Of a stretch of DNA of 64,000 bases, positions 14,498 through 29,704 are shown piece by piece. Source of the DNA: Gemmobacter serpentinus (lineage in GTDB: Bacteria; Pseudomonadota; Alphaproteobacteria; Rhodobacterales; Rhodobacteraceae); the NCBI RefSeq assembly GCF_008973825.1, contig NZ_WCHR01000019.1, positions 1-64,000 on the forward strand, given 5' to 3'. The notes below the pieces were generated by a model. That model had not been told where the DNA came from. It worked only from the letters and a program-made list of their open reading frames with translations, and made no database searches. Position 1 is the stretch's first letter, and the number at the start of each line of letters is the position of its first letter. A program made the position numbers and the translations under genes.

Positions 14498-14747
14498 TAC
14501 CAAGATGGTCGAACGTCGAAAGCAGGTTGCTCGTTTGGCTATAGCGGCAGGTGAAGTCAGGTATTGCTTACTTGCACTTCTACGCTTTTGCGGTTGTCGG
14601 TTCTTGCGGGGGAAAGCCTTCCCCCTGGCCGGCACTGCGTTGCCGGCACACCCCCTTCTGCGGGGAGACCCCGCAACGCCCCCTGGGTAGGTCTCAGCCG
14701 GACTCAGTGATGTGGTGGACGCGCTCGCCTCGCGATACACTGTCCCA

Positions 14748-15215
14748 ATGCCTATACTTCATCTCATCTGTGGGCTTCCCGGCTCGGGCAAGACCACATT
14801 GGCACGGCAGCTTGAGAATCAGGGAAAGGGGCTTCGCCTCTCTCCCGATGAATGGATGTCCACGCTCGGATTCCAGCTCTACGACGAGGGCGGCCGCGCG
14901 CGTGTCGAGCAGTTGCAATGGCGTCTGGCCCAACGCCTTCTGGCCGCCGGAAACGACGTCATTCTGGAGAACGGCTTCTGGTCAAGAGAGGAGCGCGATT
15001 CCTACCGGGCGGTTGCGCAGTCGCTCGGCTGCGAGACCCGGCTTCACTATCTCGACGTCCCCGTCGAGGAGTTGCAGCGTCGGATCATCGCCCGCAACCG
15101 CGATGCGCCTGCCGATGCGGCTGTCGATCCGAACGATCTTCTCGCTTGGTCGAAGATGTTCGAACCGCCGACCACGGACGAACTTGCGGTTGGGCACGGC
15201 ACCGCGCCGCCGTGA
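14748..15215 (+). CDS. AAA-family P-loop kinase, zeta/Cpt-like
   Basis: The start is the ATG at 14748, just before the Rossmann-type beta strand; an upstream in-frame start at 14712 would add 12 residues with no family features. The 155-residue protein opens with ILHLICGLPGSGKTTLARQLE, a canonical Walker A, followed by LRLSPDEWM (typical D/E-W lid of small-molecule kinases), DVILENGFW and LDVPVEELQRRIIARNR. This is the AAA_33 group that includes polynucleotide kinase-like, chloramphenicol phosphotransferase-like and zeta-like proteins. The substrate is unknown. It stands alone between the metal operon and the ardC block. The 250 bp to its left hold no gene I can support. Confidence 0.7.
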   Translation: MPILHLICGLPGSGKTTLARQLENQGKGLRLSPDEWMSTLGFQLYDEGGRARVEQLQWRLAQRLLAAGNDVILENGFWSREERDSYRAVAQSLGCETRLHYLDVPVEELQRRIIARNRDAPADAAVDPNDLLAWSKMFEPPTTDELAVGHGTAPP

Positions 15216-15316
15216 TCGGCGGCAGCGCCGCTTTAGAGTGAGAGTGCAGACGGGGTTTGCCGTGACGGGTTGAGGGCTGGAGAAGAGGTCTCCGGCGCCC
15301 GTCGCGGAGAACCGCG
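15208..15316 (+). ncRNA. Structured leader A (AGAGG-loop type) before ardC
   Basis: One of four closely matching leaders in this element. The outer stem pairs GTGACGGG (15262-15269) with CCCGTCGC (15298-15305); the inner stem pairs GCTGGAGA (15276-15283) with TCTCCGGC (15289-15296) and closes the pentaloop AGAGG (15284-15288). GGAG (15306-15309) follows the outer stem directly, 7 bases before the start codon. Upstream is a GCCGCC/GGCGGC hairpin and a purine-rich AGAGTGAGAG box. The other copies have different stem sequences that still pair, which is evidence for RNA function. Function unknown; the position suggests control of translation. Confidence 0.8.
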
Positions 15317-16270
15317 ATGTCCAGATACGACCATACCCCCCGTTCCGGCGCGGATCGGGCGAACCTTTACGACGAGATCACCGACAAGATCATCGCCGAG
15401 CTTGAGGCCGGGCGCTTTCCTTGGGTCCAGCCCTGGGGCAAGGCCACGGCCCAGGCCCCGCTCGGCCTGCCGCAGAACGCCAGCACCGGCCGCGCCTATA
15501 GCGGCATCAATATCCTCATCCTGTGGGGCGCCGTCGTCCAGCACGGCTTCCCCGGACAGGGCTGGCTCACCTTCCGCCAGGCGCTTTCGCTCGGCGGCAA
15601 TGTCCGCAAGGGCGAGTGCGGCACAACCGTCGTCTATGCCGATCGCTTCACGCCCGAGGACGAGAAGCGGCGGGCGCGAGAGACCGGCGAGGAACCGGGG
15701 AAGATCCCGTTCCTGAAGCGGTTCACGGTGTTCAACACCGCGCAGTGCGAGGGCCTGCCCGAGGACATTGCCGTGGCCATGCCGCCTCCGCCATCCGGAC
15801 TGGTCGAGCCGAGGGTCGAGGCGCTCATCAAGGCGACCGGCATCGACTTCCGCATCGGCGGCGACCGCGCCTACTACGTCCCGGCCCTCGACCATGTGGT
15901 CGTTCCGCCGCCGCAAGCCTATTTCGAGCCGATCAACTGGCACCGGACGGCCCTGCATGAGCTGGGTCATGCGACAGGCCATGCGTCCCGGCTGAACCGC
16001 GATTTTTCCGGTTCCTTCGGCACCAGGAAATACGCTTTCGAGGAGCTGGTGGCGGAAATCTCGGCCGCCTTCTGCTGTGCCTCCCTCGGCATTGTGCCGA
16101 CCGTCCGCCATGCGGATTACATCGCCTCCTGGCTCGAAGTGCTGCGCGAGGACAACCGGGCCGTCGTCCGCGCTGCCTCGCAGGCGAGCAAAGCGGCCGA
16201 CTGGATTTTGTCCTTCCTGCCAGATGCGGACGGGCTCGGTGCGGCCGACGATGAGCGGGAGGCAGCATGA
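15317..16270 (+). CDS. ardC: ArdC-like antirestriction protein
   Basis: The 317-residue protein has an N-terminal ssDNA-binding domain (residues ~15-150: LYDEITDKIIAELEAGRFPWVQPW, YSGINILILWG, WLTFRQALSLGGNVRKGE) and a C-terminal zinc metallopeptidase-like domain with HELGH at 214-218 and a downstream FEELVAEISAAF segment holding the third ligand. ArdC of plasmid pSA protects incoming DNA in the recipient from type I restriction by binding single strands. In this ICE it is one of several probable anti-restriction genes, along with the methylase-helicase and the DNA methyltransferase. It is preceded by structured leader A and overlaps the next gene (ATGATG). Confidence 0.92.
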   Translation: MSRYDHTPRSGADRANLYDEITDKIIAELEAGRFPWVQPWGKATAQAPLGLPQNASTGRAYSGINILILWGAVVQHGFPGQGWLTFRQALSLGGNVRKGECGTTVVYADRFTPEDEKRRARETGEEPGKIPFLKRFTVFNTAQCEGLPEDIAVAMPPPPSGLVEPRVEALIKATGIDFRIGGDRAYYVPALDHVVVPPPQAYFEPINWHRTALHELGHATGHASRLNRDFSGSFGTRKYAFEELVAEISAAFCCASLGIVPTVRHADYIASWLEVLREDNRAVVRAASQASKAADWILSFLPDADGLGAADDEREAA

Positions 16271-17217
16271 TGAACGCGCTCGCCTTTCCCGGCTCGATCC
16301 CCGATCCTGCGCAGGCGGCCGAGATCCGCCTGCGTGTCCTCAGCCTCGGCGCCGGCGTCCAGTCGACCACGCTCGCCCTCATGGCTGCCCATGGCGAGAT
16401 CGGCCCGATGCCGGATTGCGCGATCTTCGCGGACACCGGCTGGGAGCCGAACGCGGTCTATGAGCATCTTGCCTGGCTGGGATCGCCGAATGTCCTGCCA
16501 TTCCCCATCCATATCGTCTCGGCCGGGGATATCCGCGCCGATCTGCTCACCGGCGCACGCGGCGAGCGGTGGGCCTCGATCCCCGCCTTCACACGCACGG
16601 TCGCGCCCGCTGGGACTGAACTACCCGTCTATGATGAAGACGAGAACGGCGAACCCGTCATTGTCGGTTCCCGCGTCCTGGCAGGTGAGCGGATCAGCAT
16701 TGGCATGATCCGCCGCCAATGCACCAAGGACTACAAGATCACCCCAATCCGGCGGAAGGTGCGCGAACTCCTTGGCATTGCGGGGCGCCGCTCGCCCGGA
16801 TCGCCAGTCGCCGAGCAATGGATCGGGATTTCTCTCGACGAGGCGTTGCGCATGAAGCCCTCGTTTGAGGACTGGCAGGTCAACCGCTGGCCCCTGATCG
16901 AACGGGGCATGACCCGCCAGGACTGCCTGCGCTGGCTGGAGCGGCATGGCTATCCTCTCCTGCCCAAGAGCGCCTGCATCGGCTGCCCGTTCCATTCCAA
17001 TGCCTATTGGCGGCATATGCGTGACCACGATCCCGAAGGGTGGACCGATGCCGTGTCGGTCGATGCCGCCATCCGCACGGGCTTCCGGGGCATTCGCGGC
17101 GAGGTCTATCTTCACCGTTCCGCCGTCCCGCTCGATCTGGCCGATCTTTCGACAGCCGCCGATCATGGCCAGCTCGACCTCTGGCCGAACGAATGCGAGG
17201 GCATGTGCGGGGTGTGA
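16267..17217 (+). CDS. PP-loop ATPase, PAPS-reductase-like
   Basis: The 316-residue protein carries the adenine nucleotide alpha-hydrolase P-loop SLGAGVQSTT at residues ~26-35 and downstream segments FADTGWEPNAVYEHL and IRRQCTKDYKI typical of PAPS-reductase/3'-phosphoadenylylsulfate reductase relatives. Cysteines in RRQC, SACIGCPFHS and CEGMC near the C-terminus could bind a Fe-S cluster or zinc. True sulfate assimilation is unlikely in a mobile element: DndC, which installs phosphorothioate in DNA, and tRNA thiolases share this fold, so nucleic-acid modification is an attractive but unproven idea. The start overlaps the ardC stop by 4 nt, so both proteins come from one mRNA under leader A. 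Confidence 0.75.
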   Translation: MMNALAFPGSIPDPAQAAEIRLRVLSLGAGVQSTTLALMAAHGEIGPMPDCAIFADTGWEPNAVYEHLAWLGSPNVLPFPIHIVSAGDIRADLLTGARGERWASIPAFTRTVAPAGTELPVYDEDENGEPVIVGSRVLAGERISIGMIRRQCTKDYKITPIRRKVRELLGIAGRRSPGSPVAEQWIGISLDEALRMKPSFEDWQVNRWPLIERGMTRQDCLRWLERHGYPLLPKSACIGCPFHSNAYWRHMRDHDPEGWTDAVSVDAAIRTGFRGIRGEVYLHRSAVPLDLADLSTAADHGQLDLWPNECEGMCGV

Positions 17218-17241
17218 CTGCTGAAACTCGCCGATGCACAT

Positions 17242-17266
17242 AGCCGGATTTCCGGCTTTGCGATTT
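17242..17266 (+). terminator. Terminator-like hairpin after the PP-loop gene
   Basis: Arms AGCCGG and CCGGCT (17242-17257) around an ATTT loop, followed by TTGCGATTTT. It lies 25 bp after the stop and just before leader B. Confidence 0.55.
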
Positions 17267-17276
17267 TCCGGCTCGC

Positions 17277-17372
17277 AGCGCCGCCCTTCTGGAGACAGAG
17301 GGCGGCGCTTTGGGTCGTGGCGGGTTGGGTGCCGGGAGAGAGGCTCCCGGCGGCCCGCCACGGAGAACGCAG
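17277..17372 (+). ncRNA. Structured leader B (AGAGG-loop type)
   Basis: First hairpin: AGCGCCGCCCT (17277-17287) with AGGGCGGCGCT (17299-17309), perfect 11 bp. Second hairpin: outer stem GTGGCGGG (17317-17324) with CCCGCCAC (17354-17361), perfect 8 bp; inner stem GCCGGGAG (17331-17338) with CTCCCGGC (17344-17351), perfect 8 bp, closing AGAGG. GGAG follows immediately at 17362-17365, 7 bases before the ATG. This is the best-paired copy; several positions differ from leader A on both strands of the stem, i.e. compensatory changes. Confidence 0.85.
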
Positions 17373-17759
17373 ATGCCTGCTATTCAGTCACCCACGCCCC
17401 TGAAAACCTTCCTCATCTGCCATGGCGCCGAGAACGAGTTCTGGCTGTGCAAGGCCGCGGACCGGAATCATGCCGTCGAGCAGTTTGAAGCCGCCGCGAC
17501 GGACGGCGACATCAACGAGGTATTCGAGTGCGTCCCCGCCATGAACCGCTACTTCGTCCGCCAGCGGCGGGCGATGTGGGTCTGCTTCGTCCAGGAGGTC
17601 GAAGCAGAGGATGAGGATGCCGCGGTCGATGCCTTCTACCAAGGGTTCGATCCGCAGCACTTCTTCATAGAGGGCGCCCTTCAACACGCTGATCATGGCC
17701 CCGCCACGGTCTTCGACCGGCGGGAATACCCGAACGCGAATGTTGCCGAGGCCGACTGA
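17373..17759 (+). CDS. Conserved-looking hypothetical protein
   Basis: The 128-residue product is acidic, with an AADRNHAVEQFEAAATDGDINEVFECVP segment and a later EVEAEDEDAAVDAFYQGF repeat of similar design, possibly two alpha/beta half-domains. I do not recognise the family. The start at 17373 is fixed by the GGAG of leader B; an earlier in-frame start at 17310 lies inside the leader hairpin. It has its own structured leader and is followed by another (leader C), so it appears to be an independently controlled unit. Confidence 0.75.
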   Translation: MPAIQSPTPLKTFLICHGAENEFWLCKAADRNHAVEQFEAAATDGDINEVFECVPAMNRYFVRQRRAMWVCFVQEVEAEDEDAAVDAFYQGFDPQHFFIEGALQHADHGPATVFDRREYPNANVAEAD

Positions 17760-17798
17760 CGAGCTGTTCCAAAGCTGAATAGCCCGTGTCCTTGCGAC

Positions 17799-17896
17799 AG
17801 CGCTGCCCTCTTAGAGTAAGAGGGCGGCGCTTCGCTTCGTGACGGGTTGGAGGTCGAGAGAGAGGCTCACGACCGCCCGTCGCGGAGATGACCACC
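17799..17896 (+). ncRNA. Structured leader C (AGAGG-loop type) before the ParB-like gene
   Basis: First hairpin: AGCGCTGCCCTCTTA (17799-17813) pairs with TAAGAGGGCGGCGCT (17817-17831), 15 bp with one G-T pair. Second: outer stem GTGACGGG (17839-17846) with CCCGTCGC (17876-17883), inner stem GGTCG (17852-17856) with CGACC (17870-17874), one A-A mismatch, then GAG/CTC closing AGAGG. GGAG at 17884-17887. Aligning the leaders places the start codon at 17897 (9 bases after GGAG) rather than the ATG touching GGAG at 17888. Confidence 0.85.
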
Positions 17897-20050
17897 ATGG
17901 CCCGAGCTGCCAAGAAAAAGAAGCCCGCCCTTCAGATGATCGAGTTCTCGCGGGCGCGCGATATTCCGTTCAACCGCATCCGACTGTCGGATAGCAACGT
18001 CCGCGAGATCGACGTGGAGGCCGGCCTGGACGACCTGACCCATGACATCGACCGGCGGGAAGATCTCGTGCAAGGTCTCAATGTCCGCGCCGTATTCGAC
18101 GAGGACGGCAATGAGACCGGCGATTTCGAGACACCCGCAGGCGGCCGCCGCTACAGGTCCATCGCGCGCCTTGTGGAAGCCGGTCGCTTCCCGGCCGAAG
18201 GGCTTGTGCCTTGCATCGTCAAGAAGGCCGACGCCAAGACCTCGGCCGTCGACGACTCGCTGGCCGAGAACCTGCTGCGCCTCGCCCTGCATCCGCTCGA
18301 CCAGTTCAAGGCGTTCAAGCGGATGTTCGACATGGGCATGTCGAAGGAGGAGATCGCCGACGCCTGGCGGACCACGCCGCGCTACATCATGCAGCGTCTG
18401 CGCCTCGCCACCGTCGCGCCGACACTACACGATGCCTATGCGCGCAACGAGATGACGCTGGCGATGCTGGAAGCCTTCACCGTCAACCCCGACCACGAGC
18501 GCCAGCATCAGGTCTGGGAGCGCATCAGCACGTCGTGGCAGAAGGAGCCCTGGCAGATCCGCAATATGCTGACCGAGACCACGGTTCCGGCCGCCGATAA
18601 GCGCGCCCGCTTTATCGGCGTCGAAGCCTATGAGACAGCGGGCGGCCCGGTGCTGCGCGACCTCTTCTCCGAGGAAAACGGCGGCTGGTTGCAGGACGTC
18701 ACGCTCCTCGACCGCCTGGTCGACGAGAAGCTGCGCGCCATTGCCGACGAGATCGCCGGTCAAGGCTGGAAGTGGATCGACGCGGCGGTCGAGCTGCCCT
18801 ACGGCCACACCAACGGCCTGCGCAAGCTGGCCGGTGTGACCCAGGAACTGACCGAAGAGGAGCGCGCCACGCGCGAGGCGCTGCGCGACGAGTATGACGA
18901 ACTCGAAGCCAAGTATGCCGAAGCCGACGACCTCCCCGATGAGGCCGATCAGCGTCTCGGGGAGATCGAGGCCGAGCTGGAAGCCTTCGAGAACCGGCCC
19001 GTCACCTTCGCGCCGGAAGACATCGCCCGTGCCGGTGTTTTCGTCAGTATCGGCCGCGAGGGCGAGTTGATCGTCAGCAGCGGCTACGTCCGCCGCGAGG
19101 ATGAGCAACCCGAGACGGTCGATGGCGAGGATGCCGGAGAGGGCGCGGACCCGTCCGACCCTGATGCCGTGCAGCGCGCCGTCATCACTGTCGGCGGCGA
19201 GCCGGTCCCGGACGCCGACGAGGAAGAGGACGATGCTGTCAAACCGCTGCCCGAGCGGCTGGTGACGGACCTGACCGCATGGCGGACGCTGGCGCTGCGC
19301 AATGCGCTCGCCGAGAATCCGCACGTCGCCATGACGGCCCTGCTGCACAAGCTGGTTCTCGATACCTTCGAGCGCACGTCCACCTCGGGAACGAGCCTTT
19401 ATGCCGCCGTGCGTCACATCTATCTCCCGGCCGATGCGACCGGGCTCGCGGACAGTGCCGCCGCGAAGATGATCGACGAACGCGCGGACGCCTGGCGGGG
19501 CGACATTCCCTCCGGTGATGACGACAGGCTCTGGGGCTGGATCGACGGCCTCGACGATGCCAGCCGCCTGGCGCTGCTCGCCCATGGCGTCAGCTTCGGC
19601 GTCAACGCGCTCTATGAGCGGCCGAACCCCTATTCGGGGAATGGCATCTCGCAGCACGGTCTCGACCGCCGCATGGCCGAGGCCGAACGGCTGGCGCAGG
19701 CCACCGGCCTCGATCTTGTCGAAGCCGGCTGGAAACCCACGGTCGAGAACTACCTCGGCCGCGTGACCAAGACTCGCATCCTCGAAGCGGTGCGTGAAGG
19801 CGCCGGCGATCGCGCGGCCGATCTCATCGCGCATCTCAAGAAGGGCGACATGGCGAAGGAGGCCGAGCGGCTTCTGGCCGATACCGGCTGGCTGCCGGAG
19901 CCGCTGCGCCCCACCGTGGACGCGCAGGCCGTGGATGGCTCAGCCGATCAGGACGAGAATGGCATGGCGTTGCCCGATTTCCTCGCCGGTGACGATGAGA
20001 ACGCGGCCGATGCCGCCGACGATCCGGTGGCCTTGGTCGCCGCCGAGTGA
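17897..20050 (+). CDS. ParB/Spo0J-domain protein
   Basis: The 717-residue protein starts at 17897, chosen by leader alignment. Residues ~15-100 form the ParB N-terminal domain (IPFNRIRLSDSNVREI, ETPAGGRRYRSIARLVEAG, LVPCIVKK), followed by an HTH-like DNA-binding region (LAENLLRLALHPLDQFKAFKRMFDMGMSKEEIADAWRTTPRYIMQRLRLA). The remaining ~500 residues are acidic and not typical of a partition ParB, which is only about 300 residues. Such long ParB-like proteins are common in alphaproteobacterial ICEs. It could take part in element stability or act as a regulator; there is no adjacent parA, since the ParA gene lies 19 kb away near repA. A strong terminator follows. Confidence 0.85.
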   Translation: MARAAKKKKPALQMIEFSRARDIPFNRIRLSDSNVREIDVEAGLDDLTHDIDRREDLVQGLNVRAVFDEDGNETGDFETPAGGRRYRSIARLVEAGRFPAEGLVPCIVKKADAKTSAVDDSLAENLLRLALHPLDQFKAFKRMFDMGMSKEEIADAWRTTPRYIMQRLRLATVAPTLHDAYARNEMTLAMLEAFTVNPDHERQHQVWERISTSWQKEPWQIRNMLTETTVPAADKRARFIGVEAYETAGGPVLRDLFSEENGGWLQDVTLLDRLVDEKLRAIADEIAGQGWKWIDAAVELPYGHTNGLRKLAGVTQELTEEERATREALRDEYDELEAKYAEADDLPDEADQRLGEIEAELEAFENRPVTFAPEDIARAGVFVSIGREGELIVSSGYVRREDEQPETVDGEDAGEGADPSDPDAVQRAVITVGGEPVPDADEEEDDAVKPLPERLVTDLTAWRTLALRNALAENPHVAMTALLHKLVLDTFERTSTSGTSLYAAVRHIYLPADATGLADSAAAKMIDERADAWRGDIPSGDDDRLWGWIDGLDDASRLALLAHGVSFGVNALYERPNPYSGNGISQHGLDRRMAEAERLAQATGLDLVEAGWKPTVENYLGRVTKTRILEAVREGAGDRAADLIAHLKKGDMAKEAERLLADTGWLPEPLRPTVDAQAVDGSADQDENGMALPDFLAGDDENAADAADDPVALVAAE

Positions 20051-20102
20051 CGCGCACCAGCGGGGCGGTCTCGGTCGCCCCGCTTACTCCCCACCCCATA
20101 TA

Positions 20103-20130
20103 GGCTCGGCCCCGGCCGGGCCTTTTTTTT
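20103..20130 (+). terminator. Strong rho-independent terminator directly before a ribosome binding site
   Basis: GGCTCGGC pairs with GCCGGGCC (stem of about 8-9 bp with one G-T), followed by eight T residues (20123-20130). CAGGAG, the ribosome binding site of the next gene, follows at once. The gene at 20145 can therefore only be expressed by read-through, or from RNA that starts in the hairpin region. Confidence 0.85.
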
Positions 20131-20144
20131 CAGGAGACAGGATC

Positions 20145-20474
20145 ATGCCATCCGACAACCATCCCAACCCCGGCCAGCCCATTCCTCAGACTGTTCATGT
20201 CGCCCTTTATGAACATCGCTATGGAACCGATGTGCGCGCTTTTCTCGACAGCGAAGAGGCGATGCACTGGCGCACAGAGATCGCCAAAGAATGGTGGACT
20301 GACGCCTTCGATGACGATCTGCCGCCCGACGACCAGATCGGCGACGTGTATTTCGAGCGCATGTTGGAGCGCGACGAGTTCTTTTGGACGAAGGCGTGTG
20401 AAATCAAACGCGATCCTCCTGATTCCACCGATCCGGACAGCCCCGTTCCAAGCGCCGATGGTGGTGGCGCATGA
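20145..20474 (+). CDS. Hypothetical acidic protein
   Basis: The 109-residue product starts after CAGGAGACAGGATC. It is acidic, with no signal peptide or membrane segment. Notable segments are VALYEHRYGTDVRAFLDSEEA and DDDLPPDDQIGDVYFERMLERDEFFW. I do not recognise the family. It overlaps the next gene by 4 nt and sits immediately behind a strong terminator. Confidence 0.7.
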   Translation: MPSDNHPNPGQPIPQTVHVALYEHRYGTDVRAFLDSEEAMHWRTEIAKEWWTDAFDDDLPPDDQIGDVYFERMLERDEFFWTKACEIKRDPPDSTDPDSPVPSADGGGA

Positions 20475-20770
20475 TCATGACGGTTGATGAAATCTTCGCT
20501 GACGACCGCCGCAACCCTCCCATGGAGCGATCGCTTCCGTGGGAGGAAACGCGCGGCGGCGTCACCGTCTTCGTGGAGCCGAAGCCTCATTGGGCCGAGG
20601 ACATGCGCGCCTTCCGGCTCGATAGGTGCGAATATTGCCGCTATGCGGACTGGAGCGCGCACGGCGCCCGGACACGGTTCTACGGTCATATCGACACGTC
20701 CGGCGACGACGTGATGATGGAGGCTCGGGCAATTATCGCCCGCGAGATCGCCGATGGGCTATGGGACTGA
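20471..20770 (+). CDS. Hypothetical protein with Cys pair
   Basis: The 99-residue product has a CEYCRYADWSAHGARTRFYGH segment; the C-x-x-C pair and following His could bind a metal, but no named family is evident. Translation is coupled to the upstream gene through ATGA overlap. MIM start could alternatively be the Met two codons on. Confidence 0.65.
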   Translation: MIMTVDEIFADDRRNPPMERSLPWEETRGGVTVFVEPKPHWAEDMRAFRLDRCEYCRYADWSAHGARTRFYGHIDTSGDDVMMEARAIIAREIADGLWD

Positions 20771-21197
20771 GCAGCCCTTACGCCTGTGCCTGGCGCAGAC
20801 CGGGCCATCGGGGTATCGCCGCGCAGCCAGCGACGGATCGAGGTCCAGCGTCACCATTGCGCCGTCAGCTTCTCGCAGCGGGACAGCGGATTCCATCTCC
20901 AGCCTGAAACACATCCTGAAGATCAGCCCGGCAACGAGGCTGGCGCGGCGGGGCATCTATGACGGGATTCCCGGCATCCTGTCAGAGGCGAAGCACCACC
21001 CCCGCTTCCATTCGCGAACCTTGGTCCGACCGTCTCTTTGTCAATCAACCCACGAGGGGTCGGCTTACGCGAGCGTGCCGCCCTCGCGGATTCGGACGAG
21101 CCGAACGCGCGAGGGTGATTGCAGATCCGGTCGGACACTTCGGGCGCCTGTCGCGCGGGGGATGGTCCCCCGCCTCCCAAGACAGGAGCCGGAACCC
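20771..21197 (+). promoter_or_regulatory. Noncoding stretch with ATGGT-loop leader hairpin
   Basis: This 427-base gap has no gene I can support: open frames on both strands lack initiation signals. Its right part is a structured leader. CGCGAG and CTCGCG arms pair near 21071-21096 after a GTCGGCTTACGCGA motif that recurs in the leader at 34180-34220. Then GCGGGGG (21155-21161) and CCCCCGC (21167-21173) close an ATGGT pentaloop, 25 bases before the next start codon. The same ATGGT hairpin occurs before ssb (33263-33283). Confidence 0.6.
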
Positions 21198-21362
21198 ATG
21201 TCCTATGCAGATGCCACCGCCTTCGCCGCCAGCCTCGCCACCACGCTGATGGTTTCCATCGTCGTGTTTCAGGCCGGAGATGGAACCCACTCCGCCATGC
21301 CGGCCGACGAGTTCGACGGCGACGAGGAGATGGTGAAGCTGGAACTCGATCCGTGGAGCTGA
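21198..21362 (+). CDS. Small hypothetical protein, 54 residues
   Basis: Starts with AGGAG 9 bases upstream and is preceded by a structured leader like that of ssb, which argues it is real. The N-terminal half (ATAFAASLATTLMVSIVVFQ) is hydrophobic enough for one membrane helix; the C-terminal half is acidic (ADEFDGDEEMVKLELDPWS). No family recognised. Confidence 0.55.
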   Translation: MSYADATAFAASLATTLMVSIVVFQAGDGTHSAMPADEFDGDEEMVKLELDPWS

Positions 21363-21537
21363 GGCGCGAAAGCGCCTCACTCCCAAGGCCCGGTGCCCAA
21401 GCGCAGTCGGGCCTTCTCCCGACAATCGCCGCCGATTGCCGCTTGCGTGCCGGACGGCATTGCGATCTCGACCCGCATCGGAAAGAACCGTCGGCGATCA
21501 CGCCGATTTCGCTCCATCAAGATGAAAGCCATTCGCC

Positions 21538-21906
21538 ATGCTCAGCCATATTGTCGTTTCCATTCTGCTCTGCACGGCGTCATGCGAACCGGCCGAAATC
21601 CGCGTCTGGGACGGCGATTCCATTCGCTTGGGCACGACGCGGCAATCTGAGGCCGTCCGGATCTTCAACATCGACGCCCCCGAGATCGAGGGGCAATGCG
21701 CGTATGAAACCGACCTCGCGCTGCAATCGAAGATCAGGCTGGCCGAGCTTCTGAAAGGCCAGCGGATCGAAATCCTGCACCAGGGAACCGACCGCTATGG
21801 CCGGACCCTGGCGGCGATCCGCGTCGAGGGACGAGACGTCGGAGACATTCTCGTCAGCGAGGGACTGGCCCGAACCTGGGCGGGACGCCGCGAACCGTGG
21901 TGCTGA
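21538..21906 (+). CDS. Secreted thermonuclease-like (SNase) protein
   Basis: The 122-residue product starts with a short signal peptide (MLSHIVVSILLCTASCEPA). It then shows the staphylococcal nuclease core: VWDGDSIRL (metal-binding Asp), VRIFNIDAPEIEGQC (catalytic Arg and Glu region), and TDRYGRTLAAI with the second catalytic Arg, ending SEGLARTW. Length is short but typical of SNase domains on mobile elements. A Cys in SCEPA after the hydrophobic stretch could make it a lipoprotein. A periplasmic or secreted nuclease on an ICE may degrade DNA or assist mating, but its role is not known. Confidence 0.85.
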   Translation: MLSHIVVSILLCTASCEPAEIRVWDGDSIRLGTTRQSEAVRIFNIDAPEIEGQCAYETDLALQSKIRLAELLKGQRIEILHQGTDRYGRTLAAIRVEGRDVGDILVSEGLARTWAGRREPWC

Positions 21907-22004
21907 TCCACCCCGACAACAGGAGAGTGAGAGGGTGGGTCGGTTGGCCGTGACGGGTTGCAGGTGGAAGAGAGGCTTCCGCCGCCCGTCGTGGAGCAAA
22001 CCCC
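21905..22004 (+). ncRNA. Structured leader D (AGAGG-loop type)
   Basis: First hairpin: GATCCACCC (21905-21913) with GGGTGGGTC (21933-21941), one G-T. Second: outer stem GTGACGGG (21950-21957) with CCCGTCGT (21985-21992), two G-T pairs; inner stem GGTGGAAG (21963-21970) with CTTCCGCC (21976-21983), one G-T, closing AGAGG (21971-21975). GGAG follows at 21993-21996, 8 bases before the start. Stem sequences differ from leaders A-C yet still pair. Confidence 0.85.
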
Positions 22005-22562
22005 ATGACCCTTTCCCACCACCCCGGTTTTACCCTGGTCGGCGACGTCATCACGCGCGAGGTGTTGCCCCGGCTGCGCTACGCCCAAAAGCTGCCGTTG
22101 CGCCTCTCCTGCATGGGCACGGCCGGTTACGAGGGCCTCGACGAGGCCGATGAATTCGACCGCACGGTCGTCATCGGTCAATCCGCATCCGCCGAAGAAG
22201 CCATGATCCTTGCCAGCCAGCGCGTCGCGCGCGGCGACATTCGTGTCAGCGCGGACGACACGCTGCGCTTTCACCCGCGTATCGTCGTCATTCAGGACGG
22301 CGATCTCGGCCTGGTTCTCGGTGGCGAGATCCGGGCAGGAATCGTCCTCTGGCAGCAGCCCGTCGTCTCCGACGTGGAGGCCCGCCGCATCATCACCGAA
22401 GCCAGCCGCTTGCGCGGGCTGGCCTTCGCCGCCTCCGGTCGGGTCGATCACAGCGCAGCCCGCGATCATCGTTATCGCGCCAGCCTGCTCGAGGCCCGAC
22501 TGGTCGATCCCTACTGGCGCGAGACCGCGGCGGAGCTTCTCCATCTGCCCCAGGCCGCCTGA
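22005..22562 (+). CDS. Conserved-looking hypothetical protein
   Basis: The 185-residue product has no recognised family. Segments such as MGTAGYEGLDEADEFDRTVVIGQSASAEEAM, VVIQDGDLGLVLGGEIRAGIVLWQQPVVSDVEARRI and a basic C-terminal half suggest a cytosolic alpha/beta protein. It is led by structured leader D and followed by a terminator-like hairpin, so it looks like a single-gene unit. Confidence 0.7.
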   Translation: MTLSHHPGFTLVGDVITREVLPRLRYAQKLPLRLSCMGTAGYEGLDEADEFDRTVVIGQSASAEEAMILASQRVARGDIRVSADDTLRFHPRIVVIQDGDLGLVLGGEIRAGIVLWQQPVVSDVEARRIITEASRLRGLAFAASGRVDHSAARDHRYRASLLEARLVDPYWRETAAELLHLPQAA

Positions 22563-22581
22563 CACCTTCTTCCACATCTTC

Positions 22582-22610
22582 GCCCGGCCGCGCGCCGGGC
22601 TTTCTCGTTT
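22582..22610 (+). terminator. Terminator-like hairpin directly before a ribosome binding site
   Basis: GCCCGGC (22582-22588) and GCCGGGC (22594-22600) form a perfect 7-bp stem followed by TTTCTCGTTT, then CAGGAG of the next gene. The design is the same as at 20103-20136. Confidence 0.75.
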
Positions 22611-22622
22611 CAGGAGTCCGAC

Positions 22623-23069
22623 ATGGCTAACTATTTCACCCATTTCTCCTGCCTGCTCGACGTAGGCACCCCGGAAAACGCCGCCCGCGCGCTCGACCTC
22701 TACAACGCACTTTCAGAGGAAAACGCTGCCGAAGACCCTCCCTCGGAAGGATTCATTCTGTCGATCCAGCCTGAGCATGGCGGCACCCAGCTCTGGATGC
22801 GCGACGATGAGACCGGCGATCCCGAGCATGTGATCCAGTTCGTAAAACGCTGCGCGGCCGCGTTCGGCCTGTCGGGCCTCTGGGGCTTCCAGTATGCGAC
22901 CGCCTGCTCGCAAGCCAGGGTCAACGCCTTCGGTGGTGGCGCGCATGCCCTCGATCTCGCCACCGGCGAGACCGTGGACTGGATCTATAGCGGCAGCTGG
23001 CTGGAGATCGTCCTGGACGGAGGTGATCCCTATGCCTTCTGTAATGGGGCCAGTGCAGTCAATGGGTAA
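22623..23069 (+). CDS. Conserved-looking hypothetical protein
   Basis: The 148-residue product (starts ANYFTHFSCLLDVGTPENAARAL) has no recognised family. FILSIQPEHGGTQLWMRDDETGDPEHVIQFVKRCAAAFGLSGLWGFQYATACS is a well-formed alpha/beta segment. Its last ~10 residues (FCNGASAVNG) lie at the left border of the IS110-type element, so the natural C-terminus may have been replaced by IS sequence. Confidence 0.7.
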   Translation: MANYFTHFSCLLDVGTPENAARALDLYNALSEENAAEDPPSEGFILSIQPEHGGTQLWMRDDETGDPEHVIQFVKRCAAAFGLSGLWGFQYATACSQARVNAFGGGAHALDLATGETVDWIYSGSWLEIVLDGGDPYAFCNGASAVNG

Positions 23070-23410
23070 TATTCAACAAAAGGCCCCCTCGAGGCTGAGC
23101 GCTTCGAGGGCATGGCTAGGCGGAACGGATAAGTCCTGGCGGTCACCCCCTCTGGCGCTTTCGATACCGTTCCATCGATTGTGATCCTACACCGGTTCGC
23201 GCTTCTGTCCGTGGTCGACGCAGTGGTCGCCAACTTGATGCTGGTTCAAAGCGGTCTCCGCGCGCCTATCTGAGATACGTGCTCGGAGCAGAAGCTTCGG
23301 CTACAAGGCATCGGGCGGCGTCGTCGGAAACCGCGTCCTGGTGAGGACCTCGATGGCCGGTTTTCAGGTCGGCCAGTTCGTTGTTTTCAGTCGCGGCAAC
23401 TTGGCTGGCT
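23070..23410 (-). ncRNA. Candidate bridge RNA region of the IS110-type element
   Basis: This gene-free 3' end of the element should hold the bridge (seeker) RNA if the element behaves like characterised IS110/IS1111 recombinases, whose noncoding ends specify donor and target DNA. A stem CCCTCGA (around 23087) with TCGAGGG (around 23102) is visible, but I cannot fold the whole region or define target-binding loops. Call rests on family knowledge and position. Confidence 0.45.
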
Positions 23411-24433: not shown

Positions 24434-25196
24434 AGATCACTCCCCTCTTGATCCCAATGACAGGCAGCCTGAATCAAGCAACGAAGCGCCCGAATTTCCC
24501 AGCGGGAAAAGTTCTGGATCCGCTTCAGCCCCGGGCAGCCACCCCATTACGGCATCTGAGATCATCGAAACCACGGTCTATCGGCTCGACGAGCTTTCCG
24601 ACACGGCGAAGGACAAGGCCCGCGCCTGGTATCGCGAAGGCGGGTTCGACTACGACTGGTATGATGCGGTCTATGAGGATTTCCAGCGGATCGCGGAAAT
24701 CCTCGGCATCCGCTTCAAGACCCGCACCGTGCGCCTGTATGGCGGCGGCTCGCGGCGGGAGCCGCGCATCTTCTTCTCAGGCTTCTGGTCACAAGGCGAT
24801 GGCGCTTGTTGGGAAGGGTTCTACTCCTATGGGAAGAACGCCTCGGCCGAGATTCGATCCCATGCACCGCAGGATACGGCCCTGCACGGTATCGCCGATG
24901 CCCTTCAGGCAATCCAGCGACGCAATTTCTACCAGCTTCGCGCCGAGGCCAGCCATCGTGGTCGCTACTACCATGAGTATTGCATGGCGATTTCCGTCGA
25001 ACGCGACAGCCAGACATATCAGGACATGACCGCCGATGCCGAGGAGATCGTGATTGAGGCGCTGCGCGATCTGGCCCGTTGGCTCTACCGCCAGCTTGAG
25101 CGCGAATACGACTACCTCTCCTCGGGTGAGGCGGTGGATGAGACCATCACCGCCAACGAATATACCTTCACCAAAGCCGGACGCCGTTTTGGCTGA
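24414..25196 (+). CDS. Hypothetical ICE protein, 5' end altered by IS110
   Basis: From ETTVYRLDELSDTAKDKARAWYREGGFDYDWYDAVYEDF onward the ~215-residue product is a well-formed conserved-looking protein; later segments include RIFFSGFWSQGDGACWEGFYSYG and YYHEYCMAISVERDS. It resembles proteins often found in ICEs and plasmids next to DarB-like genes, without known function. The frame has no start codon between that segment and the ATG at 24414, which lies inside the antisense transposase gene. The original start was probably lost on insertion, so the gene may be silent or use the IS-provided start. Confidence 0.6.
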   Translation: MPTKTPIDHSPLDPNDRQPESSNEAPEFPSGKSSGSASAPGSHPITASEIIETTVYRLDELSDTAKDKARAWYREGGFDYDWYDAVYEDFQRIAEILGIRFKTRTVRLYGGGSRREPRIFFSGFWSQGDGACWEGFYSYGKNASAEIRSHAPQDTALHGIADALQAIQRRNFYQLRAEASHRGRYYHEYCMAISVERDSQTYQDMTADAEEIVIEALRDLARWLYRQLEREYDYLSSGEAVDETITANEYTFTKAGRRFG

Positions 25197-25229: not shown

Positions 25230-25354
25230 TTGTTTCATGCCTGCTTACGCCACGGCTTGAGAGGGAGAGAGCGACCGGAAGGGATTTGAGCCGGTGCGGT
25301 CGAGAGAGAGCGCCGTGCGGCTCGGTCCTATTCCGCTCTCCCAAGGAATCTCCG
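25230..25354 (+). promoter_or_regulatory. Leader E, related to the AGAGG leaders, before the methylase-helicase gene
   Basis: The stretch carries the same purine box (TTGAGAGGGAGAGAG near 25256), ACCGG/CCGGT arms, and a second hairpin with GAGCCG/CGGCTC outer arms enclosing a GAGAGAG loop, then AAGGA before the start. It is clearly a relative but too diverged for a base-by-base match with leaders A-D. Just upstream, AAGCGC/GCGCTT arms followed by GTTT (25203-25227) may terminate the preceding gene. Confidence 0.55.
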
Positions 25355-28300
25355 ATGAACATGATCTCTGCTTCCGCGGCGGCCTCCGCCGCCGCGCCGC
25401 TTCCACTCGACCATGACGCCGAGACGGCTGCTTCCACCTTCACCGCTGCCGGTTTCCTGCTGCCGCATCTCGAACGCGGTCAGCGTGTCGATGCCGCAAC
25501 CCTGCGCGGCGCCATGGAAGCGGCCTTCGGCGCTTCCGATGCCACCGGCGCCTGGAACTGGAAGACCGCCTATGATGCCTGCGAGGCGGCGACCGTCCTC
25601 TTCCTGCGCAAATACGGCGCTGCGCTTTTCCGCAGAGCCGGGTCATCGGCGGCTATCCTGCCGCAGCTCGGCAAGATCGCCGGGCTCCTGCCGACGCATA
25701 CACGCCGGTCGGAGGAAGCCCAGACCTTCCAGCAGTTCTCCACCCCGATCCCGCTTGGCTTTGCGGCGGTGACGGCGGCGGCGATCACTCCTGCCGACCG
25801 GGTGCTGGAGCCCTCGGCCGGCACCGGGCTCCTCGCCATTCTGGCCGAGATCGCCGGCGGCACGCTGCTCCTCAACGAACTCGCCGAGATGCGCGCCGGC
25901 CTGCTTTCCTCTCTCTTTCCGGCCCTCTCCGTGACCCGCTTCGACGCCGCCCAGATCGACGATCACCTCGATCCCGGCCTGGTCCCGACCGTCGTGCTGA
26001 TGAACCCGCCGTTCTCGGTCATGGTGAATGTCGAGGGCCGCATGGCCGATGCCGCCTTCCGCCATGTCGCCTCGGCGCTGGCGCGCCTTGCGCCCGGCGG
26101 GCGGCTTGTGACCATCACCGGGGCGAGCTTCGCCGCCGACAATCCGGCATGGACCGCCTCCTGGACCCGGCTGCAGGAGCGCGGCCGCGTCACCTTTTCC
26201 GCCGCAGTCGATGGGTCGGTCTATGCCAAGCATGGCACCACGATCCCAACCCGGCTGACCGTCATCGACAAGCTGCCCGCCGACGACCCTGCGGTGTTTC
26301 CGACAGCAATCGGAGTCGCGCCGGACGTGGCGACGCTGATGGGCTGGCTGGCGGATCAGTTGCCCGCGCGGCTGCCGGTCGATCCCGGCGTTGCCGTGCC
26401 GATCGCGCGGCCTGCCGTCCCCCGCACCGTGCGCGGCTATGTCAACCGAACGGCGAGGGCTGCGCCCGCCGCGCCGCTGGCCGAGCCGGAGGGGGTGCCG
26501 CTCGCCTATGAGACCGTCGATTGGGCACCGGCCGAAGACGGCCGCCTCTCCGATGCGATCTATGAGGAATACGGTCTCCAGACCATCCGCATCGCCGGCG
26601 CGCAGGCGCATCCGACCCAGCTCGTGCAATCGGCGTCGATGGCGAGCATCGCGCCGCCGAAGCCGAGCTACCGGCCGATGCTGCCAGCCGACATTCTCGG
26701 CAAGCTGTCCGAGGCGCAACTGGAAACCGTGATCTATGCCGGCGAGGCCCATACGGGCTTCCTCGCCGGGGCCTGGACGGTCGATGACACGCTCGACAGC
26801 CTGTCCGCCGCGCCGGAGGAGGCCGAGGGTGCCATCCGTTTCCGCCAAGGGTTCATGGTCGGCGACGGCACTGGTGTCGGCAAGGGCCGGGAATCCGCTG
26901 CCATCATCCTCGACAACTGGATGCAAGGGCGGCGTAAGGCGGTCTGGATATCGAAGTCGGACAAGCTGCTGGAGGACGCACAAAGGGACTGGAGCGCCCT
27001 CGGCATGGAGCGGCTGCTGGTCACGCCGCTGTCGCGCTTCCTACAAGGCAAGCCGATCACTCTGGGCGAAGGCGTCCTATTTTTAACCTATGCCACGCTG
27101 CGCTCCGACGACCGCGGCGAAAGGGTTTCGCGCGTCAAACAGATCGTCGAATGGTTGGGCTCCGACTTCGATGGGGTCATCATCTTCGACGAGGCGCATG
27201 CCATGGCCAACGCCGCCGGCGGCAAGGGAGAACGCGGTGATGTCGCCGCCAGCCAGCAGGGTCGCGCCGGGCTGCGCCTCCAGCATGCCCTGCCGCAGGC
27301 CCGCGTCGTCTATGTCTCGGCCACCGGCGCCACCACCGTCCACAACCTCGCCTATGCGCAGCGCCTGGGCCTCTGGGGCGGCGAGGATTTCCCGTTCTCG
27401 ACCAGGGCGGAATTCGTCGAGGCGATCGAGGCCGGTGGCGTCGCGGCAATGGAGGTGCTGGCCCGCGACCTGCGCGCCCTCGGCCTCTACACCGCCCGTT
27501 CGCTGTCATTCAAAGGCGTGGAATACGAGCTGCTCGACCATGAGCTGACCCCGGAGCAGATCCGCATCTACGACAGCTACGCCGATGCCTTCGCCATCAT
27601 CCACAACAACCTGGATGCCGCGATGCAGGCCGCCAACATCACCGGCGGCGACGGCGGCTCCGGCACGCTGAACCGGCAGGCCAAATCCGCCGCCCGCTCG
27701 GCCTTCGAGAGCGCCAAGCAGCGCTTTTTCGGGCACCTGCTCACGTCGATGAAAACCCCGACGCTGATCCGCTCGATCACCAGCGATCTGGAGGCGGGCC
27801 ATTCCTCCGTCATCCAGATCGTTTCGACCGGCGAGGCGCTGATGGAACGGAGGCTCGCCGAGATCCCCACCGAGGAATGGGGCGACCTGAAAATGGACCT
27901 GTCGCCGCGCGAATATGTCCTCGACTACCTCGCCCATTCCTTCCCGGTCCAGCTCTACGAGCCGTTCACGGATTCGGAGGGCAACCTGTCGTCTCGCCCG
28001 GTCTATCGCGACGGCCAGCCAGTCGAAAGCCGGGAGGCCGTGGCGCGGCGCGACGAGATGATCGCAAGCCTCGCCAGCCTGCCGCCGGTCCCCGGCGCGC
28101 TCGACCAGATCATCCAGCATTTCGGCACTGACACCGTGGCCGAGGTCACTGGCCGCTCGCGCCGGATCGTTCGCAAGCGCAGCGTGACCATCGACCGGCT
28201 GGTCGTGGAGAATCGCGCCGGTTCGGCCAATCTCGCCGAGACCCAGGCGTTCATGGATGATGGCAAGCGTGTGCTGGTGTTCAGCGACGCCGGCGGCACC

Positions 28301-29704
28301 GGGCGCAGCTACCACGCCGAACTCTCGGCGAAGAACACCCGGCTGCGCGTCCACTATCTCCTCGAAGCGGGCTGGAAGGCCGATGCCGCCATCCAAGGGC
28401 TTGGCCGCACGCACCGCACCAATCAGGCGCAACCGCCGCTGTTCCGGCCGATCTCGACCAATGTGAAAGCCGAGAAGCGATTTCTCTCGACCATCGCCCG
28501 CCGCCTCGACACCTTGGGTGCGATCACGCGCGGCCAGCGCCAGACCGGCGGTCAGGGCCTGTTCCGCCCGGAAGACAATCTGGAGAGCCACTACGCCCGC
28601 GACGCGCTGCGCCAGCTCTATCTCCTGCTGGTGCGGGGCAAGGTCGAGGGATGCAGCTTGGAGCGGTTCGAGGCCGCAACGGGGCTGAAGCTGATGGACT
28701 CGAACGGCATCAAGGATGATTTGCCGGCGATCACCACGTTTCTCAACCGTTTGCTCGCCCTGACCATTGAGCTTCAGGGCGTGCTGTTCACCGCCTTCGA
28801 GCAGCTTCTGACCGCGCGGATTGAGGGCGCCATCGCCTCGGGCACCTATGATGCCGGACTGGAGACGCTGCGCGCCGAAAGCTTCGTGGTGGCGGACCGG
28901 CAGGTGATCTACACCCATCCGCGCACCGGGGCCGAGACCAGCCTGCTGACTATCACCGAACGCAAGCGCAACCGGCCGGTGACGCTCGACGCCGCCTTGG
29001 CCGAACTCGATGATCCGCGTGCGAAGCTGCTGATCAACGAGCGCTCGGGTCGCGCGGCGGTGCAGATCCCCAGCACGAGCGTCATGCTGGATGATGGCGA
29101 GATCGAGCGCCGCGTCCGCCTGATCCGGCCGATGGAGGCCCATAACGTCCCGGTCAGAATGATGGGCGAAACCCATTGGGTCGAGGCCGACCGGGACGTC
29201 TTCGCATCGGCTTGGGAGGCCGAGGTTGCAGAAGTGCCGGAGTTTGCCGACAGCACCCTGCATATGGTCACGGGCTTGTTGCTGCCGATCTGGAAGCGGT
29301 TGCCCAATGACTCCACCCGCGTCTATCGGCTCCAGTCTGACGCCGGCGAGCGCATCATCGGCCGGAAGGTCTCTCCAGCCTGGGCCGCGAACGCGACCAA
29401 GACCGGAACCGCATCGGTCACGCCGGATGATGCCTTTGCGGCGCTGATGGAAGGTCGGACGATCCTCGATCTCGCCGAGGGCCTTCAGCTTCGGCGGGTC
29501 CGCGTCATGGGCGCGAACCGGATCGAACTCTCCGGCTTTACCGACATGATGCGTCAGCGCCTCTCGGCCTATGGCCTCTTCCACGAAATCATCTCATGGA
29601 AGCTGCGCATGTTCGTTCCGGTCGATGGGACTGGCCCTGCCGTTCTCGGCAAGGTTCTCGACCGCTGGCCGGTCGAGCGCATCGGCGAGCGGGAGGCAGC
29701 ATGA
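25355..29704 (+). CDS. DarB-like DNA methylase / strawberry-notch helicase fusion
   Basis: The 1449-residue protein joins two parts. Residues ~100-330 are a DNA methyltransferase: motif I LEPSAGTGLL (151-160) and catalytic NPPF (217-220, adenine-N6 type). Residues ~480-1100 are a superfamily 2 helicase of the strawberry notch group: GDGTGVGKGRES (Walker A, ~503-514), IIFDEAHAM (DEAH, ~609-617), VYVSATGATT, FSDAGGTGRSYHAEL and QGLGRTHRTNQAQ (motif VI). Phage P1 DarB has the same methylase-helicase build and protects DNA entering a new host from type I restriction. In this ICE it is the best candidate for a transferred or expressed anti-restriction protein. It overlaps the downstream Toprim gene (ATGATG), giving one operon under leader E. 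Confidence 0.85.
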   Translation: MNMISASAAASAAAPLPLDHDAETAASTFTAAGFLLPHLERGQRVDAATLRGAMEAAFGASDATGAWNWKTAYDACEAATVLFLRKYGAALFRRAGSSAAILPQLGKIAGLLPTHTRRSEEAQTFQQFSTPIPLGFAAVTAAAITPADRVLEPSAGTGLLAILAEIAGGTLLLNELAEMRAGLLSSLFPALSVTRFDAAQIDDHLDPGLVPTVVLMNPPFSVMVNVEGRMADAAFRHVASALARLAPGGRLVTITGASFAADNPAWTASWTRLQERGRVTFSAAVDGSVYAKHGTTIPTRLTVIDKLPADDPAVFPTAIGVAPDVATLMGWLADQLPARLPVDPGVAVPIARPAVPRTVRGYVNRTARAAPAAPLAEPEGVPLAYETVDWAPAEDGRLSDAIYEEYGLQTIRIAGAQAHPTQLVQSASMASIAPPKPSYRPMLPADILGKLSEAQLETVIYAGEAHTGFLAGAWTVDDTLDSLSAAPEEAEGAIRFRQGFMVGDGTGVGKGRESAAIILDNWMQGRRKAVWISKSDKLLEDAQRDWSALGMERLLVTPLSRFLQGKPITLGEGVLFLTYATLRSDDRGERVSRVKQIVEWLGSDFDGVIIFDEAHAMANAAGGKGERGDVAASQQGRAGLRLQHALPQARVVYVSATGATTVHNLAYAQRLGLWGGEDFPFSTRAEFVEAIEAGGVAAMEVLARDLRALGLYTARSLSFKGVEYELLDHELTPEQIRIYDSYADAFAIIHNNLDAAMQAANITGGDGGSGTLNRQAKSAARSAFESAKQRFFGHLLTSMKTPTLIRSITSDLEAGHSSVIQIVSTGEALMERRLAEIPTEEWGDLKMDLSPREYVLDYLAHSFPVQLYEPFTDSEGNLSSRPVYRDGQPVESREAVARRDEMIASLASLPPVPGALDQIIQHFGTDTVAEVTGRSRRIVRKRSVTIDRLVVENRAGSANLAETQAFMDDGKRVLVFSDAGGTGRSYHAELSAKNTRLRVHYLLEAGWKADAAIQGLGRTHRTNQAQPPLFRPISTNVKAEKRFLSTIARRLDTLGAITRGQRQTGGQGLFRPEDNLESHYARDALRQLYLLLVRGKVEGCSLERFEAATGLKLMDSNGIKDDLPAITTFLNRLLALTIELQGVLFTAFEQLLTARIEGAIASGTYDAGLETLRAESFVVADRQVIYTHPRTGAETSLLTITERKRNRPVTLDAALAELDDPRAKLLINERSGRAAVQIPSTSVMLDDGEIERRVRLIRPMEAHNVPVRMMGETHWVEADRDVFASAWEAEVAEVPEFADSTLHMVTGLLLPIWKRLPNDSTRVYRLQSDAGERIIGRKVSPAWAANATKTGTASVTPDDAFAALMEGRTILDLAEGLQLRRVRVMGANRIELSGFTDMMRQRLSAYGLFHEIISWKLRMFVPVDGTGPAVLGKVLDRWPVERIGEREAA

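Follow-up and report, generated by a model that had tools for sequence, protein, structure and literature searches.

A recurrent bulged RNA hairpin with a purine box upstream of unrelated genes of an integrative and conjugative element in Gemmobacter serpentinus

We analyzed a stretch of 64,000 nt from Gemmobacter serpentinus (GCF_008973825.1, contig NZ_WCHR01000019.1, positions 1-64,000, forward strand; hereafter the window) that carries genes of an integrative and conjugative element (ICE). Four leaders, A to D, precede genes for an ArdC-like protein, a 128-amino-acid (aa) protein, a ParB-like protein and a 185-aa protein. Each leader combines a purine box, a bulged hairpin with an AGAGG loop and a GGAG Shine-Dalgarno (SD) sequence. 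The first-pass annotation had proposed the positions of A-D, an outer and an inner stem, the AGAGG loop and a short spacing between GGAG and ATG, all of which were borne out by reading, folding and a structural scan. The features of these leaders are:

15208-15316, plus strand: leader A, upstream of ardC
15235..15244, plus strand: purine box of leader A, AGAGTGAGAG, a match to the box pattern
15260..15307, plus strand: hairpin of leader A, with outer stem CCGTGACGGGT/GCCCGTCGCGG, a 5' bulge, inner stem GCTGGAGA/TCTCCGGC and AGAGG loop
15306..15309, plus strand: GGAG SD sequence of ardC, its GG forming the last two predicted stem pairs
17277-17372, plus strand: leader B, hairpin at 17315..17363
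17291..17300, plus strand: variant purine box of leader B, GGAGACAGAG, one base off the pattern; the identical sequence occurs in locus L035
17799-17896, plus strand: leader C, hairpin at 17837..17885
17813..17822, plus strand: purine box of leader C, AGAGTAAGAG, a match to the box pattern
21905-22004, plus strand: leader D, hairpin at 21948..21994
21924..21933, plus strand: purine box of leader D, AGAGTGAGAG, a match to the box pattern

Reading, folding and alignment gave the same outer stem, YCGTGRCGGGT/GCCCGYCRYGG, in each of A-D. A 5'-side bulge, 4 or 5 nt long in A-D and between 3 and 6 nt in relatives, accompanies it, as does an inner stem of 8-10 positions that closes the AGAGG pentaloop and contains one A.A mismatch in C. 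The first two bases of GGAG are the last two of the predicted stem in all four leaders, and the distance from GGAG to ATG is 7 nt in A and B, 9 nt in C and 8 nt in D. Each leader folded better than 200 of 200 dinucleotide shuffles (z = -4.40, -6.46, -7.51 and -4.68 for A, B, C and D), and the structural scan of both strands found the bulged double stem with an AGAGG loop exactly four times in the 64 kb, namely at A-D. Across the family most pentaloops read AGAGG; AGNGG and AGAGT variants also occur, position 3 admitting T or C and position 5 T, and the loop is closed by C/T. A three-codon frame in the stem (GTG ACG GGT TGA) was considered and dropped because its stop is absent from many copies.

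To compare leaders between genomes, a covariance model (R1) was derived from an alignment, A3, of 39 non-redundant leaders including A-D. R1 scored A-D at 72.3, 71.3, 66.4 and 66.0 bits, values that are partly due to construction because the model includes these four. They are the only strong matches in the window, the next-best one (15.7 bits) lying antisense to leader C. Loci were collected with an exact DNA pattern taken from the outer stem and loop (at least 118 stretches of the genome collection, hereafter pattern loci) and with the ParB-like protein as query, the latter because the DNA pattern selects its own letters. The protein search (E <= 1e-20) covered 289 alphaproteobacterial genomes and gave 36 matches in 27 genomes, 30 of which were returned as loci; these are unselected by the motif, yet they overlap the pattern loci (for example G004:C2/L079 and G060:C60/L062). 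R1 matches were counted at E <= 1e-4 in the same 289 genomes (class sample) and in a phylum sample of 349 genomes, some genomes being in both. Two further alignments were made. A4 holds 53 matches (42 distinct) from loci picked by protein, by model or from the G. serpentinus genome and not by the DNA pattern, part of these loci being contigs that the pattern had found too. A8 holds 150 of 159 matches (142 distinct leaders) and was used for a FastTree tree with a branch-by-branch parsimony count.

Covariation of the stems, claimed in the first-pass annotation from the four copies of one genome, was recovered in every one of these comparisons, and homologous leaders in other elements kept their pairing. 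In A3, 96.2% of the 741 cells are standard pairs and 10 of 19 pairs show changes on both sides, among them 7 of the 8 inner-stem pairs; none of 500 shuffles reached these measures, and partners slid out of register paired in only 38-47%. A4 gave much the same picture (96.1% paired cells, double changes in 11/19 pairs). On the A8 tree we counted 30 concurrent changes, 27 of them pair-keeping, against a null mean of 7.8 and a maximum of 16 in 1000 replicates, and slid partners yielded 0-2 pair-keeping concurrent changes. Taken singly, 8 of the 19 pairs reached p < 0.05 and 10 had no concurrent change at all. The outer stem also varies with pairing kept in loci found by protein (GACGAG/CTCGTC, GACGGA/TCCGTC and GACGGC/GCCGTC). 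Read on the mRNA strand, wobble pairs were strongly asymmetric, with 132 G-U against 11 A-C in A4 and, in A8, 480 G-U and 30 A-C cells next to 2138 Watson-Crick pairs and 44 other mismatches. Because a fold maintained in the opposite strand would invert this asymmetry, these data indicate that the structure is kept in the mRNA strand.

The hairpin is tied to the start codon. Among the pattern loci listed, 153 leaders of this kind (type I) scored at least 38; a start was identified for 148 of them, in every case ATG, and among the remaining five L058, on the minus strand, is probably a fortuitous structure. GGAG lies 7, 8 or 9 nt from ATG in 143 of these 148. The five outliers have spacings of 0 nt (three instances), 5 nt and 10 nt, and the 0-nt cases resemble leader C, which has one ATG immediately after GGAG and another 9 nt further on. 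Folding of 141 leaders predicted the GG of GGAG to be almost always paired, with mean unpaired probabilities of 0.02 and 0.05. A conserved sense-strand RNA structure directly 5' of the start codon, as found here, is what characterizes a cis-regulatory translational leader.

Upstream of the hairpin the conserved part is a 10-nt purine box, AGAG[TG][AG]A(G/A)AG, 17-19 nt from the GACGG of the stem. The pattern AGAGNNAGAG occurred within 80 nt upstream in 115 of 137 distinct leaders (mononucleotide shuffles: mean 0.08); in 114 of them it ends 17-19 nt ahead of GACGG. Among the 22 remaining leaders, inspection by eye showed one or two differing bases in 21 and one insertion in the last, L032. On the plus strand of the window AGAGNNAGAG is confined to A, C, D and a further leader, E, described below; one more match lies on the minus strand. 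Conservation starts at the box: among 88 sequences no column upstream of it exceeded 0.42 bit, and no conserved promoter or -35/-10 element was found in or upstream of the leader. The first-pass annotation had seen a conserved double hairpin, and this did not hold, the conserved parts being the second hairpin and the box. An upstream hairpin is strong in B (11/11 paired bases) and C (14/15). As part of the motif it was rejected on the lack of conserved columns and on weak folding, since the stretch around the box in 83 non-redundant leaders had a mean z of -0.69 with 18% below -2; in 69 of the 83, at least 2.5 expected pairs enclose the box.

Leaders of this type recur across Alphaproteobacteria. 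Records with pattern matches belonged, with one exception, to Alphaproteobacteria of many genera (Mesorhizobium, Rhizobium, Bradyrhizobium, Paracoccus, Sphingobium and Methylobacterium among the matches listed) or to metagenome-assembled genomes of unplaced Proteobacteria. In the 118 loci listed, 216 bulged double stems with any loop scored at least 40, and 150 of these, spread over 103 loci, had an AGAGG loop. R1 matched 20/289 genomes of the class sample and 29/349 of the phylum sample; all 29 belong to Alphaproteobacteria, and no match outside the class was found among the 349, a sample whose out-of-class share is not stated. Leader A matched in 74 plasmid records, and leader C had no match in phage records. 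The exception, L114:3013-3069 in a record labelled Verrucomicrobia bacterium LP2A, is a typical leader before the start of an ArdC-like frame and could stem from transfer beyond the class or from an assembly that is mislabelled or contaminated. The G. serpentinus genome itself has five further copies with AGTGG or AGCGG loops on contigs C6 (L184), C57 (L185) and C25 (L186), where they precede DUF932-like, leader-D-like and ParB-like genes; one or two additional related elements, at the least, thus seem to be present. A pattern match on its contig C58 (L005) was set aside as chance because it is crossed by open reading frames and not surrounded by such a hairpin.

As the first-pass annotation had proposed to check, leaders recur before the same genes in other genomes. 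An R1 match lay directly upstream of the ParB-like gene in 20 of the 30 protein-found loci, comprising all 18 with E <= 5e-153, one of which is the window's locus, and two more distant loci, L141 and L144; a further ParB-like match in the same E range that is not among the 30 loci, G175:C2, also has one directly upstream. Loci L139, L140, L142, L143 and L145-L150 have no leader. We then compared ten leader-bearing elements, as stretches of 34-60 kb, with six stretches of leaderless relatives. Strong R1 matches stood at the ParB-like gene in 10/10 elements and at the gene just before it in 7/10, with weak ones (26-27 bits) at that gene in G082 and G236 and none in G280. No type I leader was found at relaxase, TraG or TrbB-like genes of the ten elements, and none in the six leaderless stretches, two of which have ArdC homologues.

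The genes downstream of A-D, together with a gene that follows ardC without a leader, are:

15317..16270, plus strand: ArdC-like protein (ArdcN and MPTase-PolyVal), after leader A
16267..17217, plus strand: 316-aa protein without Pfam match and without a leader of its own, overlapping the end of ardC; PP-loop-like according to the first-pass annotation
17373..17759, plus strand: 128-aa protein of unassigned family, after leader B
17897..20050, plus strand: 717-aa ParB-like protein, after leader C; an alternative ATG at 17888 abuts GGAG
22005..22562, plus strand: 185-aa protein of unassigned family, after leader D

That one RNA element joins unrelated ICE genes, as had been suggested, was confirmed by the protein families downstream of the listed instances. 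The 146 proteins of at least 30 aa comprised 55 ParB-like, 51 ArdC and 22 DUF932-like proteins, 16 of the leader D family, one leader B protein and one fragment. DUF932 fell below the Pfam cut-off in the one DUF932-like relative scanned, and an HTH_ParB-like stretch in the window's ParB-like protein was slightly under it. The 316-aa protein is perhaps coupled to the leader A gene; it shows weak similarity to SspD of phosphorothioation defence (PADLOC). Behind the ParB-like gene, between C and D, window positions 20060-20130 contain a terminator-like stem with a T run (site 20102-20123) and gave weak, sub-threshold Rfam scores to Yfr1 and SorY.

Leader E did not match the A-D hairpin in the structural scan or with R1. 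Judged by its sequence, it represents a second leader type (type II) in the window, and its proposed kinship with A-D was upheld through the shared purine box, the hairpin being different:

25230-25354, plus strand: leader E, upstream of the strawberry-notch-type helicase gene
25260..25269, plus strand: purine box of leader E, AGAGGGAGAG, type II, a match to the box pattern
25275..25340, plus strand: type II hairpin of leader E, with an inner hairpin at 25288-25323 whose loop region contains AGAGAGAGC
25355..29704, plus strand: strawberry-notch-type helicase (AAA_34 and Helicase_C_4, 1449 aa), after leader E; the methylase-helicase of the first-pass annotation

A CTCTCCC near the 3' end of E's hairpin is predicted to pair with the box. 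Homologues of the helicase-methylase gave 27 matches in 20/289 genomes, and among the 24 loci examined 17 have a type II leader, that is, the box and a hairpin with GAGAG in the apical loop; the box was recognized by regular expression in 14 and by eye in L238, L239 and L247, which have variants (partly visible in L247). Six loci (L242-L246 and L252) have no type II leader, L255 is too short, and the fragments L248, L251 and L254 stand outside the count. The six sit in genomes G105, G279, G185, G288 and G252, where the ParB-like loci examined are leaderless too. Type II leaders, of which 20 were aligned (A5), also precede DUF6878, RadC and nuclease (SNase) genes and, in G236, a frame that appears to resemble the nuclease one. 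Separately, a related hairpin with GGAACGG in place of the AGAGG loop (for example GCTGACGGGT...GCCCGTCGCGGGAG) was seen at L137:4072-4130, L136:3998-4057 and L153:965-1023; in elements G095, G082 and G236, respectively, it precedes a further gene that lies upstream of the ParB-like one. These hairpins are a possible third leader type.

Taken together, the sequence comparisons show selection on a sense-strand RNA structure before unrelated genes, composed of the box, the bulged hairpin with its AGNG(G/T) loop and GGAG. On these comparisons, the RNA structure and its position are well supported. We consider it probable that A-D represent a single cis-acting mRNA element in several copies, through which translation initiation of genes for ICE or plasmid establishment is controlled. 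That such control would act at translation is supported by the tie to the start codon, by the separate copies that several neighbouring genes have and by the predicted pairing of GG. A hairpin that ends on the SD sequence, with a conserved loop, a linear box and a freely varying inner stem, has the look of a protein-controlled translational operator. The AGAG sequences of box and loop may be read by a single trans-acting factor, most likely an element-encoded protein, which would either hold the hairpin closed or sit on it and so keep out the 30S subunit; type II leaders such as E may be read by the same factor. An ICE-encoded translational blocker, as the first-pass annotation suggested, would fit the predicted GG pairing, the shared recognition sequences and the presence or absence of leaders by element. 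In a carrier cell such a factor would keep ArdC, the ParB-like and DUF932-like proteins and the helicase-methylase low, and in a fresh recipient without it these establishment proteins would be translated at once, amounting to zygotic induction at the level of translation. We put this forward tentatively: post-transcriptional zygotic induction, with an element-encoded RNA-binding repressor reading the box and the AGNG(G/T) loop in both leader types, silence in the donor and a burst in the recipient, is possible and clearly less certain than translational control as such.

A switch of this kind, silent in the donor and active in the recipient, is plausible because ArdC acts in the recipient: for R388, one study describes ArdC as needed in the recipient and not in the donor (PMC7213743). 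If true, zygotic induction by these leaders would parallel, at the RNA level, the Frpo promoters of enterobacterial plasmids. Whatever the mechanism, the leader family is a case of one RNA structure kept by selection ahead of many unrelated mobile-element genes. It would mark genes protecting incoming DNA across Alphaproteobacteria, and any gene preceded by a leader becomes a candidate establishment or anti-defence gene. To our knowledge, little is known outside F-like plasmids about how ICEs silence and release such genes.

Several points weigh against this interpretation. The A and G of GGAG and the AUG are predicted to be unpaired at mean probabilities of 0.34, 0.30 and 0.39 (n = 141), so with about one third unpaired the hairpin alone need not shut translation off. 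At the two pairs formed with the GG of GGAG the 5' partner alternates between C and U without any double change in A3, A4 or A8, and because these pairs vary on the 5' side only, hiding of the SD sequence is an argument from folding predictions. A4 and A8 were fitted to the model structure, the A8 tree was built on only 74 columns, and its null places changes on branches simply. Loops can differ within one element, with AGAGG at one gene and AGAGT at another; on the same grounds a concerted loop change within elements was rejected, an idea prompted by the AGTGG and AGCGG copies of the G. serpentinus genome. Ten type II folds gave z between -0.92 and -6.40, the weakest barely beating its shuffles. 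Leader presence by element could be shared ancestry alone, and the leaderless relatives are distant, with 29-41% identity of the ParB-like protein. Placement of the leader genes in the leading, first-transferred region is assumed. No regulator was identified among the element proteins looked at. The DUF736 protein, a candidate RNA-binding factor present in 10/10 long leader-bearing elements, was set aside and kept only as a lead, since it also occurs in the leaderless stretch n093 and its structural model was too weak; made from two sequences, the model had a pLDDT of 73.5 and no PDB match at E <= 0.001. A contig scan found no DUF736 relatives in viral contigs.

The missing regulator would suit a different account, in which the leaders are riboswitches, RNA thermometers, targets of a host small RNA or RNA-binding protein, or constitutive ribosome-standby or mRNA-stability devices, with no element-encoded regulator involved. 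The GAGG or GAG of loop and box is SD-like and could draw 30S subunits, and a spread over many alphaproteobacterial genera would suit a class-wide host factor. We regard this account as rather unlikely, given that the downstream proteins share no common metabolic theme and that the leaders are bound to one mobile-element family and absent at related genes of other elements in the class. Processive antitermination, where box and purine-loop hairpin in the nascent RNA would modify RNA polymerase and thereby let it pass terminators within long ICE operons, draws on the likeness to lambda nut, which pairs a linear box with a purine-rich pentaloop hairpin, to the leader hairpins of HK022 put, and on the terminator-like site between C and D. 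It is improbable in our judgement: an SD end held 7-9 nt from ATG would be needless for antitermination, B and C lie only about 520 nt apart, whereas one site would serve an operon, and the box is unlike boxA CGCTCTTA, which was not matched. Unlike nut and put, the leaders are fixed to the start codon and present in several copies within a few kb.

Two DNA-level explanations fare worse. A promoter or priming site (Frpo/ssi-like) in the transferred single strand would serve early expression in the recipient. Frpo elements, too, are folded and lie upstream of conjugative leading-region genes, including SSB, in F-like and other plasmids, according to PMC11541004. ArdC, SSB and ParB-like proteins resemble the leading-region set. 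For such a site the folded strand would be the template, where the 480 G-U cells become A-C mismatches. The leaders fold in the mRNA strand, lack conserved -35/-10 boxes (the single promoter-like match in 14500-26000 falls outside them), end on an SD sequence and are placed relative to the start codon, and we take a function of this sort to be very unlikely. A DNA operator, in which the long inverted repeat GTGACGGG...CCCGTCRY is bound as duplex by the ParB-like or another HTH protein, would make use of the HTH_ParB-like stretch and of the leader that the ParB-like gene itself carries in 18/18 close loci. Duplex binding, however, needs no pairing of the inner stem, where double changes were found at 7/8 pairs, nor does it account for the strong wobble asymmetry; the arms are separated by 28-29 nt and held in place relative to the start codon, and no promoter is conserved. 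We take the operator to be the least probable of these explanations.

Considered as translational operators, the leaders have parallels in the MS2/R17 coat protein operator and in the CsrA and T4 RegA targets, which likewise place a hairpin or motif at the SD sequence with a conserved loop and a covarying stem. They differ from these in sequence and architecture (box, bulged hairpin and AGNG[G/T] loop) and in serving unrelated ICE genes, with a cognate protein that is only putative. CsrA/RsmA targets present GGA in a hairpin loop; in the leaders GGA lies at the SD sequence and not in the loop. None of the 12 terminator-like sites in 14500-26000 falls within A-D. In an Rfam search, also proposed at the outset, neither the window nor 16 loci in which relatives occur had a match at the gathering threshold of any Rfam 15 family, and permissive searches of 14500-30200 and eight loci gave no match on the sense strand of any leader. 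A literature search by title and start of abstract found no description of the element. The words hairpin and ParB are absent from the consulted portions of PMC10359603 and PMC8627217, and the leader is thus not described there in these terms; ParB is likewise absent from the main text of PMC11109978, PMC8632094, PMC6429828 and PMC2864571, and ArdC from the three queried for it. The kind of element, a cis-acting translational leader, is known. With no match in Rfam 15 or in the literature search, the present family appears to be new within these searches, and so do the set of genes it precedes and its bipartite recognition sequence.

The remaining backbone of the window's element comprises SSB, a PF10074/RovC protein (PF10074 was formerly DUF2285), an HTH_17 protein, RPA, ParA, DUF2840, an S26 (TraF-like) peptidase, DUF736, a DUF3363 relaxase, TraG and a T2SSE (TrbB-like) ATPase. 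Many of these proteins are kept in the ten other leader-bearing elements, eight of which have TraG and TrbB-like homologues. The HTH_17 protein is perhaps RdfS, because its gene lies upstream of the S26 peptidase gene. As described in PMC10359603, PMC8627217 and PMC11963761, the ICEMlSymR7A-type backbone includes FseA/DUF2285, RdfS, DUF736, RlxS and Trb. The window's element shares with it PF10074, the possible RdfS, DUF736, the DUF3363 relaxase, TraG and the TrbB-like ATPase and is thus in line with such a backbone. Amid these plus-strand ICE genes, a 340-aa frame runs on the minus strand (23411-24433); it had weak matches in 2 of the 16 compared stretches and is perhaps an inserted transposase gene.

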